DNA of 64,000 nucleotides from positions 1-64,000 of the forward strand of contig CALIML010000017.1 in assembly GCA_938045475.1 (NCBI GenBank), given 5' to 3'. Shown here piece after piece: positions 28,746 through 31,176 of this stretch. Below the pieces are notes generated by a model. That model saw only the letters and a program-made list of their open reading frames with translations, ran no database searches and was not told the DNA's origin. Each line of letters starts with the position of its first letter. Position 1 is the first letter of the stretch. The DNA comes from an uncultured Sulfolobales archaeon (GTDB taxonomy: Archaea; Thermoproteota; Thermoprotei_A; Sulfolobales; Desulfurococcaceae). The position numbers were made by a program, and so were the translations under genes.

Positions 28746-29783
28746 CTACTTAACTTCCATCAATGATTCCTTAGCTGCCTTAATGTTTAATGCTGACTCA
28801 GCTATGCCGTTGCTATAACGCATTATTCTCCTAATGCTGTCGTGCATCATTATGCTTGTAACTCTTTCGCCTGGGGTCACCTCTTGATCAACCATGATCT
28901 TGTCGAACACTACTTCGCGCAGATCCTTTAATGACTTTGCGCTAATGCTTATAACTTCTTCAGCGATCTTTCTGTGGAGCTTGTATACTGAATCCATTGC
29001 TGTATTGAAGATCTCCAGAGCTTTTTCGCCGAAGCCCGCTAATTCATCACAGTACTTACACACAGCTGGCCTAATGTAGGTGAGCCTGGCTATGTTTACA
29101 GAGTGATCAGCTATTCTCTCCATGTTTCTCGCCAATATTCTATAGTTAAGTGCTTCAACTGAGCTCGTCAACCCTAGAGACTCCATTACTCTAAAGTCTA
29201 GTAGAGCTATGGATAGCTGTCTAGCTATAACGAAGTGGAATCTATCCACTTCATCATCTCTTTGAATAACTGCTTCAGCCATATCAGTATTCGTAGCTTT
29301 AAATGCTTTAACAGCGTCTGAAAGCATATTGTTCACTATTAAGTGCACTCTTCTTAAAGCCTTCATTAATGGCAGCTCCTCTAGATCTAGGAGGACTTTG
29401 AATACTATGCTGTTAAAAGTTTCATCTATGACTTCTATTCCTGCAAGCTTTGACCTAGCCAGCTTCTTCATTTCATTAATTAGCTTAGGTAATCCAGGCG
29501 CGTTCTCCGGCATGACTACTTTTATTGTACTATATCCAGCCAAGTATCCAGCTATCACAATCCTGAAGACTTCATCTAGGCTTACATCGGGGCTCAGCAC
29601 TTTCACTTCAGTACTTAATTGCTGAGCCTCAACAATTGATGGAGCTACAATTAGCATATTGCCGTGCCTATAGACCGTCACGTAGTCGCCTGGCCTCATT
29701 CCAAGCGAATCAACCCACTCCTTGGGTAGAGTAACTATGTATGATGATGAACCAGTTTTCTGAATCCTCCTCCTTTCAACCAT
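28746..29783 (-). CDS. PhoU-domain regulator with N-terminal AbrB-like DNA-binding domain
   Basis: Residues about 1-45 form a SpoVT/AbrB swapped-hairpin domain (RRIQKTGSSSYIVTLPKEWV, GMRPGDYVTVYRHG). Residues about 120-345 are two PhoU helical bundles with the metal-coordinating pattern ERIADHSVNIARL. Archaeal proteins of this kind regulate phosphate uptake and related processes. ATG 29783 is preferred over GTG 29792 because GGTGA lies just before it. A 20-bp near-palindrome at 29794-29813 stands in the leader, suggesting autoregulation. No phosphate transporter genes are near. Confidence 0.85.
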   Translation of the reverse strand: MVERRRIQKTGSSSYIVTLPKEWVDSLGMRPGDYVTVYRHGNMLIVAPSIVEAQQLSTEVKVLSPDVSLDEVFRIVIAGYLAGYSTIKVVMPENAPGLPKLINEMKKLARSKLAGIEVIDETFNSIVFKVLLDLEELPLMKALRRVHLIVNNMLSDAVKAFKATNTDMAEAVIQRDDEVDRFHFVIARQLSIALLDFRVMESLGLTSSVEALNYRILARNMERIADHSVNIARLTYIRPAVCKYCDELAGFGEKALEIFNTAMDSVYKLHRKIAEEVISISAKSLKDLREVVFDKIMVDQEVTPGERVTSIMMHDSIRRIMRYSNGIAESALNIKAAKESLMEVK

Positions 29784-29793
29784 GGATTTCACC

Positions 29794-30003: not shown

Positions 30004-30011
30004 TTTATATA
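30004..30011 (+). promoter_or_regulatory. TATA box of the aRF1 gene
   Basis: TTTATATA, preceded by AATAAA, stands 40 bases before ATG 30051, so transcription should begin near 30035 and leave a short leader with the GGGTG ribosome site at 30040-30044. Confidence 0.6.
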
Positions 30012-30050
30012 GGGAGAGAATGTTGTGTGACTTACTATAGGGTGTCAGGG

Positions 30051-31176
30051 ATGAGTCTTTAGCTATAGCAGTGATTACATAGAGAGGCTGGCTGTAGATA
30101 AGCGCAGCTTAAGAAATATACTTGTTGAACTAAGGAAGTGGAGGGCTCCAGCCACAGTTCTCCTAAGCCTTTATGTGCCTCCGGAAAGACCTATAAGTGA
30201 TGTACTTAACTTGCTTAGACAAGAGCTTTCAATAACTGATAACATTAAGTTAAAGAAGACTAGGAACGCTGTTCAAAGAGCTCTTACAGCAACTATAGAT
30301 AGATTGTCAAAGATCCTTAAAGTGCCTGAAAAAGGTCTGGCAGTATTCTGTGGCGAAAACATGGATACGGGGGACTTCATATGCGTTACGCTATCCCCGC
30401 CTGAGCCAGTGCCAGTGTTCTTCTATAGAACTGACAAGGAATTCCACCTGGAGTTCCTTGAGCCAATGGTTGAAGAGAGCAATGTAATTGGTTTAATAAT
30501 AGTTGAGAGAGATGCTGCTACAATAGGGTTACTTAAGGGCAATAGACTTGAAGTTCTTGACGAACTTGAAGACTACATACCTGGTAAGCACACTAAAGGA
30601 GGTCAAAGCCAGAGGAGGTACGATAGAGTCATAGAGCAAATGGTTCATGAATTCTACAAGAGAGTTGGGGAAAGAGCTAAAGAGTACTTTGAGCCATACC
30701 TTGAAGGCGGGAAGTTAAAGGCAATACTCTTAGGAGGCCCAGCCTACGCTAAGTACGACTTCCTAGAGGGAGACTACTTAGACTACAGGTTGAAGCAGCT
30801 TCTCATACCGAAGTTCATTGATGTAGCTTATCAAGGTGAAGTAGGCCTTAGGGAAATGATCATTAAAGCAAATGATGTACTGAAGGAACAACAATACTTA
30901 GAGGCTCTTAAAGCTATAGATGAATTTAAACTACACTTAGTGAAGGACGATGGATTAACTATTTACGGAGATGAAGAGTTAAGAAAGGCCTTGGAGGCAG
31001 GGGCAGTGGAGAAACTCATAGTAAGTGAGGAGAGGAGCGATTTAGATGAGTGGATTGAGCTAGCTAAAAGAAGCGGTGCAAAAATCGTTGTAATAAACGA
31101 TGAAATACCTGAAGGAGCCTGGGTCAATAAGACATTCGGTGGAGTAGTTGGAATACTTAGATACAGGCTGTTTTAA
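30051..31176 (+). CDS. prf1: Archaeal peptide chain release factor aRF1, read through a +1 frameshift
   Basis: Class-I release factor that reads all three stop codons and frees the peptide. The body holds DNIKLKKTRNAVQRA (codon-recognition region), GKHTKGGQSQRRYDR with the catalytic GGQ, and GEVGLREMIIKANDVL. The conserved N-terminal part SLRNILVELRKW-RAPATVLLSLYVPP is encoded from 30061 on, but this frame has no ATG, GTG or TTG between the TGA at 30052-30054 and GTG 30175. The only well placed start is ATG 30051 in the neighbouring frame: ATG AGT CTT TAG. A +1 shift at CTT T (skipping base 30060) gives M-S-L then S-Y-S-S-D-Y-I-E-R-L and a 374-residue protein of normal length. Real programmed shift or a sequencing error; see findings. 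Confidence 0.88.
30057..30063 (+). promoter_or_regulatory. Putative programmed +1 frameshift site CTT TAG C in aRF1
   Basis: The third codon CTT is followed by stop TAG and a C. CTT can re-pair on TTT one base ahead, so the ribosome continues AGC TAT AGC in the release-factor frame. The bacterial RF2 gene uses CTT TGA C at its autoregulatory site. Efficient termination at the TAG by abundant aRF1 would lower aRF1 synthesis. An AGGG at 30047-30050 could act as an internal ribosome-pairing element. Confidence 0.6.

Follow-up and report, generated by a model that had tools for sequence, protein, structure and literature searches.

How is archaeal release factor 1 (aRF1) translated from a gene whose coding frame has no usual start codon at its 5' end? 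The question is raised by a locus within the window, the whole stretch of 64,000 nucleotides analyzed here. An initial annotation had explained this locus by a +1 frameshift like that of bacterial RF2.

The aRF1 reading frame in the window

The TATA box, the GGGTG, and the ATG AGT CTT TAG C (30051-30063) on which the initial annotation was built are all present where it had placed them, and the frame opened by this ATG ends after three codons. In the +1 frame, the same bases read TGA GTC TTT AGC TAT AGC ..., which translates into the aRF1 N-domain. Frame reading confirmed that the N-domain frame lies one base ahead and that its first canonical start is the GTG at 30175, with no ATG, GTG, or TTG before it in the aRF1 frame of the window. 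The shifted-frame protein is aRF1, as it matches TIGR03676 (aRF1_eRF1) with 440.4 bits against a cutoff of 234.7 (E value of 5.3e-132); it also matches pelota, more weakly. A divergent open reading frame of 348 residues lies upstream on the minus strand (28746-29792), so aRF1 probably has its own promoter. Transcription presumably starts near 30034, given the usual archaeal spacing after a TATA-like box. The features of the locus are collected in Table 1.

Table 1. Features of the aRF1 locus, in window coordinates
Feature	Position	Strand	Remark
TATA-like box TTTATATA	30004..30011	+	Read from sequence; likely aRF1 promoter
GGGTG, Shine-Dalgarno-like	30040..30044	+	6 nt from the end of GGTG to the ATG
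AGGG, abutting the ATG, 6 nt before the slip codon	30047..30050	+	Possible stimulator; putative role
Zero-frame mini-ORF ATG AGT CTT TAG	30051..30062	+	Read from sequence
TGA in the aRF1 frame, overlapping the ATG	30052..30054	+	Blocks initiation in the aRF1 frame from farther upstream
Shift heptamer CTT TAG C	30057..30063	+	Read from sequence
aRF1 coding frame after the predicted +1 shift	30061..31176	+	TAA at 31174-31176; TIGR03676 match
GTG, first canonical start in the aRF1 frame	30175..30177	+	Would remove the start of the N-domain

Conservation of the site across genomes

The arrangement was sought in 134 aRF1 genes with anchored 5' ends, taken from genomes of the window's order and near it. 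To count as the motif, a site had to have a zero-frame ATG, GTG, or TTG, then one to three additional codons, and then NTT and a stop, and aRF1 had to lie in the +1 frame. Four genomes without a full aRF1 match (G008, G039, G082, and G087) were left out of the first 99. Of two further sets of new genomes, 20 of 49 (most of those skipped belonging to family f06) and 35 of 103 were examined.

The motif is present in 99 of the 134 genes. It occurs in every gene of the window's family f01 (38/38), of f03 (10/10), f04 (4/4), and f11 (31/31, as ATG AGT CTT TGA/TAG), and of f13 (1/1), and in part of f02 (10/16), f05 (4/5), and f10 (1/3). Families f06 (0/7), f07 (0/4), f08 (0/6), and f09 (0/7) lack it and have ordinary starts, and it is also missing from the single genes of f14 (0/1) and f16 (0/1). 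An uninterrupted ATG-led frame is thus found in some families only, not in all relatives. Family f11 is taken as Sulfolobaceae because the aRF1 of its genome G077 shows no difference, over 232 residues, from the aRF1 chain of PDB entry 8hku, which we take to be the Sulfolobus acidocaldarius model described in PMC10516650, and because the named homologs beside it come from Saccharolobus, Acidianus, Metallosphaera, and Sulfodiicoccus.

The level expected by chance is low, as mononucleotide shuffles of the 90 upstream bases gave the motif (with up to six codons) in 834 of 26,800 cases, or 3.1%. Under the same looser rule of up to six codons, 100 of the 134 genes match, the extra one being in f09. 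Outside the order, 2 of 40 genomes match under this rule, which is chance-like when set against the 3.1% in shuffles. A genome-wide search with the 15-base pattern GGRTGRGTYTTTAGY found a match in 25 of 61 genomes, one apiece, compared with 1 in 61 genomes for a reversed-pattern control; 23 of the 25 lie at aRF1 by their coordinates, and those of G021 and G060 lie elsewhere. Public named records, among them Sulfolobales archaeon SKYB35 (whose protein is 94% identical) and a Staphylothermus sp., carry the same site, although many of these records represent the same genomes. A rough tree was made from 74 aRF1 proteins, with the N-terminal columns kept and the states set by hand. It requires eight changes, and in it the families with ordinary starts fall among those assigned to frameshifting; a single origin is not resolved by it.

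The initial annotation had looked to relatives for CTT-stop-C together with the shifted frame. The arrangement is kept, but its letters are broader than expected: the slip codon is NTT and not only CTT, and the position after it, although always a stop in motif genes, may be TAG, TGA, or TAA instead of TAG alone.

Indications of selection on the zero frame

In f01, f03, f04, f10, and f11, each of the 84 motif genes has a zero-frame ATG or GTG in register with its stop (79 ATG and 5 GTG), and ATG is replaced only by GTG, in two genera of f01. Across all 99 motif genes, the start is ATG in 80, GTG in 16, and TTG in 3. The slip codon, which is NTT by definition of the motif, is CTT in 39, TTT in 30, ATT in 28, and GTT in 2. 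The stop is TAG in 69, TGA in 29, and TAA in 1, and a C follows it in 72 of 99.

The aRF1-frame codon that overlies the stop varies among AGC, AGT, GAC, GAT, GAG, GAA, and AAT, encoding Ser, Asp, Glu, or Asn. The residue over the stop changes while the stop itself is kept, a point that is carried by the whole-family counts since the motif definition already demands a stop. Among relatives with ordinary starts, only 14 of 27 second codons would complete a stop. A Fisher test of 99/99 against 14/27 gives a P value of 1.2e-10. No weight is placed on this value, as a stop is part of the motif definition and the species share ancestry; counting whole families is the sound way to make this comparison.

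Two further patterns concern the bases around the shift. A codon test with 30 genes each from f01 and f11 was restricted to conserved two-fold columns, and in both families the slip-site Phe, always TTT, is the only column with a single codon (1 of 73 in f01 and 1 of 68 in f11). TTT is a minority codon elsewhere in the gene, making up 30% (f01) and 42% (f11) of its Phe codons. All 31 genes of f11 share the 11 bases G-ATGAGTCTTT without variation, and conservation starts abruptly 8 bases before the ATG; none of these 31 genes has an aRF1-frame start codon upstream, and a TGA overlaps the ATG. In f01, the spacing from ATG to stop is fixed and the distance to the Shine-Dalgarno sequence is variable (genus g7). 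We conclude that the site is genuine and conserved, and that it has some function for which the zero-frame stop is required.

Putative initiation signals upstream of the site

Four 16S genes from the window's family end in the anti-Shine-Dalgarno tail GGATCACCTCC, which makes GGTG and GAGG Shine-Dalgarno-like; in the window's own assembly (G000, 89% complete), no archaeal 16S rRNA was found. A GGTG-type site 6 to 8 nt ahead of the start was counted in at least 14 of the 38 f01 genes and in 9 of the 10 genes of f03. AGGG or GAGGG precedes the ATG in most of the listed genes of f01, f03, f04, and f11 and is absent in some, including G099 and several of genus g7. In f11, a TATA-like hexamer, matched with a rough pattern, ends 32 to 33 nt before the ATG in 17 of 31 genes, a position that points to very short leaders.

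For f02, f05, and f13, the zero-frame GTG or TTG could either serve as a near-leaderless start or belong to a Shine-Dalgarno sequence. These families are weaker evidence for frameshifting, as the GTG lies within GGTG, which could be a Shine-Dalgarno sequence alone. Downstream RNA structure that could act as a stimulator was not found in the window (z score of +1.0, with 169 of 200 shuffles folding at least as well).

A predicted +1 frameshift and competing explanations

The best reading of the site, which we consider very likely, is a programmed +1 frameshift like that of bacterial RF2, predicted to autoregulate aRF1. This is also what the initial annotation had proposed, and the conservation in relatives supports it, with the shift and the feedback inferred from the arrangement. 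Initiation would take place at ATG 30051, guided by GGGTG, so that after three codons CTT would occupy the P site and TAG the A site. Should aRF1 arrive late, the tRNA in the P site would slip one base forward, from NUU to UUU (CTT to TTT in the window), and the next codon read would be AGC, giving a product that begins M-S-L-S-Y-S-S-D. The AGGG or GAGGG just upstream may stimulate the shift. As aRF1 would compete with slippage, it would limit its own synthesis, and the shift would likely be more frequent when aRF1 is scarce. Archaeal RF1 reads all three stops (PMC3521657), so any stop can serve as the sensor, and all four slip codons seen (CTT, TTT, ATT, and GTT) land on UUU. For these two reasons the switch would work with any stop and any NTT. 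It is likely, with somewhat less assurance, that the archaeal order containing Sulfolobus controls its only class I release factor by an RF2-style +1 frameshift near the start.

Several observations stand against frameshifting. The motif is missing in 6 of 16 genes of f02 and 1 of 5 of f05, and three sister families do without it. G050, G156, and G170 have an in-frame GTG in its place; in G078 and G080, neither frame's start is in register and the spacer is one base longer; and G069 and G085 carry TAT TAG C, which would not re-pair. Frameshifting thus leaves G069, G078, G080, and G085 unexplained. The 6-nt distance of the Shine-Dalgarno-like element from the slip codon, where prfB has 3 nt, and the missing downstream structure count against it too. 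Moreover, 23 of the 99 motif genes have an upstream start in the aRF1 frame, which in G048 and G063 is a GTG at the site itself. Initiation upstream in frame is nevertheless not a general solution, since the other 76 have no aRF1-frame ATG, GTG, or TTG upstream of the site. Transcriptional slippage is not favored either, the run of T being only three bases long at CTTTAGC and CTTTGAC.

The main competitor is non-AUG initiation, to which we give a small but real chance. Here translation would begin at the aRF1-frame TTT, or at ATT in two genomes, with the initiator tRNA positioned by a Shine-Dalgarno sequence about 7 nt upstream. Such a start codon would be weak and would limit aRF1, leaving the ATG mini-ORF as a chance feature or a decoy. 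This TTT aligns with Met1 of relatives that have ordinary ATG AGC starts. By eye, GAGGG lies 7 nt before it in most f01, f03, and f04 genes, and 15 genes of f02, f03, f05, and f13 show GGTG, exactly 6 nt, and ATTTAG or ATTTAA. G069 and G085 carry GGTG-N7-ATT-AGC, and G078 and G080, which frameshifting does not cover, are covered as well. What such a start leaves unexplained is the zero frame, both the invariant ATG or GTG in the 84 motif genes counted above and the stop constantly formed over the second codon, which is seen in barely half of the ordinary-start relatives. It also offers no reason why TTT never became TTG, and G099 has the site without a Shine-Dalgarno-like AGGG before it. A much less probable route is that ribosomes terminate at the stop of the mini-ORF and then re-initiate in the aRF1 frame or hop into it, which would couple aRF1 synthesis positively to termination. 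The mini-ORF stop does overlap the aRF1 frame, and family f34 has a different mini-ORF stop (TAA) over an aRF1-frame ATA in 4 of 4 genomes. However, there is no aRF1-frame start codon near the stop, nothing in this route requires NTT to be kept before it, and the feedback would be positive. The alternative that the initial annotation had named, an error of sequencing or assembly or else a disabling mutation of recent date, comes to mind because the assembly behind the window is metagenome-style and consists of 24 contigs, but its probability is negligible: the same arrangement recurs in 99 of 134 genes of separate genomes, several of them single-contig, and without exception in the window's family (38/38) and in f11 (31/31), which rules it out.

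Annotation of aRF1 and related loci

Among 13 sequences inspected out of 120 listed, all eight named Sulfolobales aRF1 models (8/8) start downstream of the site, inside the conserved N-domain. Public Sulfolobales models P0001, P0009, P0013, P0016, P0034, P0041, P0044, P0053, and P0056 have scattered starts within this domain.

Some loci depart from the common arrangement. The f34 genomes (L252/G246, L253/G215, L263/G272, and L264/G252) have, in 4 of 4 cases, a short open reading frame ending in CTG GAA TAA before aRF1. Its residues there are D-A/V-L-E, with synonymous differences, its TAA overlaps the aRF1-frame ATA, and its frame relation to aRF1 is -1 or +2; in L264 there is no upstream aRF1-frame ATG, GTG, or TTG. 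This is possibly a second, different recoding event or a non-AUG start. In f02, loci L113 and L118 (G069 and G085) read GGTG-N7-ATT AGC GAG, with ATG AAG TAT TAG C in the zero frame, a site that should not slip by re-pairing and where AUU is perhaps the start. Loci L179, L184, L192, and L119 belong to genus g27, three species of which carry an in-frame GTG immediately ahead of the conserved ATTTAG, which looks like a loss of the switch; L084 (G080) has the longer spacer noted above. Finally, locus L066/L223 (G056, f08) reads ACG AGC TAC in place of the ATG AGC TAC of its ordinary-start relatives, with no alternative start in frame nearby.

Implications

If the frameshift reading is true, two unrelated families of release factor, in different domains of life, have arrived at self-limiting synthesis by +1 frameshifting, and aRF1 would be the second cellular invention of this release-factor thermostat. 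The occurrence of the same heptamers in bacterial prfB and archaeal aRF1, with a giant-virus gene as a third case, would be strong convergence. The shift would also be the first programmed +1 case in a cellular gene of archaea, a domain with a single shown frameshift according to PMC8211752, and would bear on the view, proposed in PMC3521657, that such control was lost from archaea or never existed there. The aRF1 gene would then be misannotated in public records, which matters for recombinant aRF1 made from such models. A genetically tractable host is at hand in Sulfolobus acidocaldarius, with whose aRF1 that of G077 is identified and which carries ATG AGT CTT TGA C.

Comparison with known recoding systems

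No description of an aRF1 frameshift in archaea was found in the open-licence papers searched. A review of archaeal recoding lists one shown programmed frameshift, a -1 event in fucA1 of Saccharolobus solfataricus, and mentions a haloarchaeal virus for which a +1 shift has been suggested (PMC8211752). The fucA1 case resembles the one proposed here in being a programmed frameshift in a crenarchaeon. It differs in direction (-1), in its site (A-AAA-AAT with a putative stem-loop), in lying in a fucosidase gene of a few strains, and in involving no stop-codon sensing (PMC8211752). A genome-wide survey of frameshifts, by its own account, missed those within 50 nt of the start, so the shift in aRF1 would be hidden from it (PMC3711429).

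Closer in protein type are the release factors of giant viruses, Mimivirus R726 and Megavirus mg280, which like aRF1 are of the eRF1/aRF1 type (PMC3521657). The Mimivirus site, CUU UAG C, is identical to the heptamer of the window, and its +1 shift product has been seen in E. coli (PMC3521657). The giant-virus genes have an extra readthrough stop upstream (PMC3521657); the window has none, and only ATG AGT CTT precede its stop. The same paper describes such autoregulation as absent from eukaryotic and archaeal homologs (PMC3521657).

A further likeness is to bacterial prfB, which encodes RF2 and has the consensus YTT_TRA_C with a slip into UUU (PMC3711429). Both are class I release factor genes with a slip codon, a stop, usually a C, and UUU as the landing codon, a predicted one in aRF1. 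The CTT TAG C of the window fits this pattern, with a zero-frame YTT, a TRA stop, a C, and the main frame at +1, and the CTT TGA C found in 19 of 31 f11 genes is the bacterial site letter for letter. The two systems differ in detail. In aRF1, the predicted shift comes 3 to 5 codons after the start, compared with codon 26 in E. coli prfB; slipping would also take place on ATT, TTT, and GTT; and the most frequent stop is TAG. The AGGG of the window stands 6 nt before CTT, whereas the AGGGGG of prfB stands 3 nt before its slip codon (PMC12421855). Furthermore, aRF1 belongs to the eRF1 family and prfB encodes a member of the RF1/RF2 family. Because these are different protein families (PMC3521657), the switch in aRF1 would have an origin independent of that in RF2.
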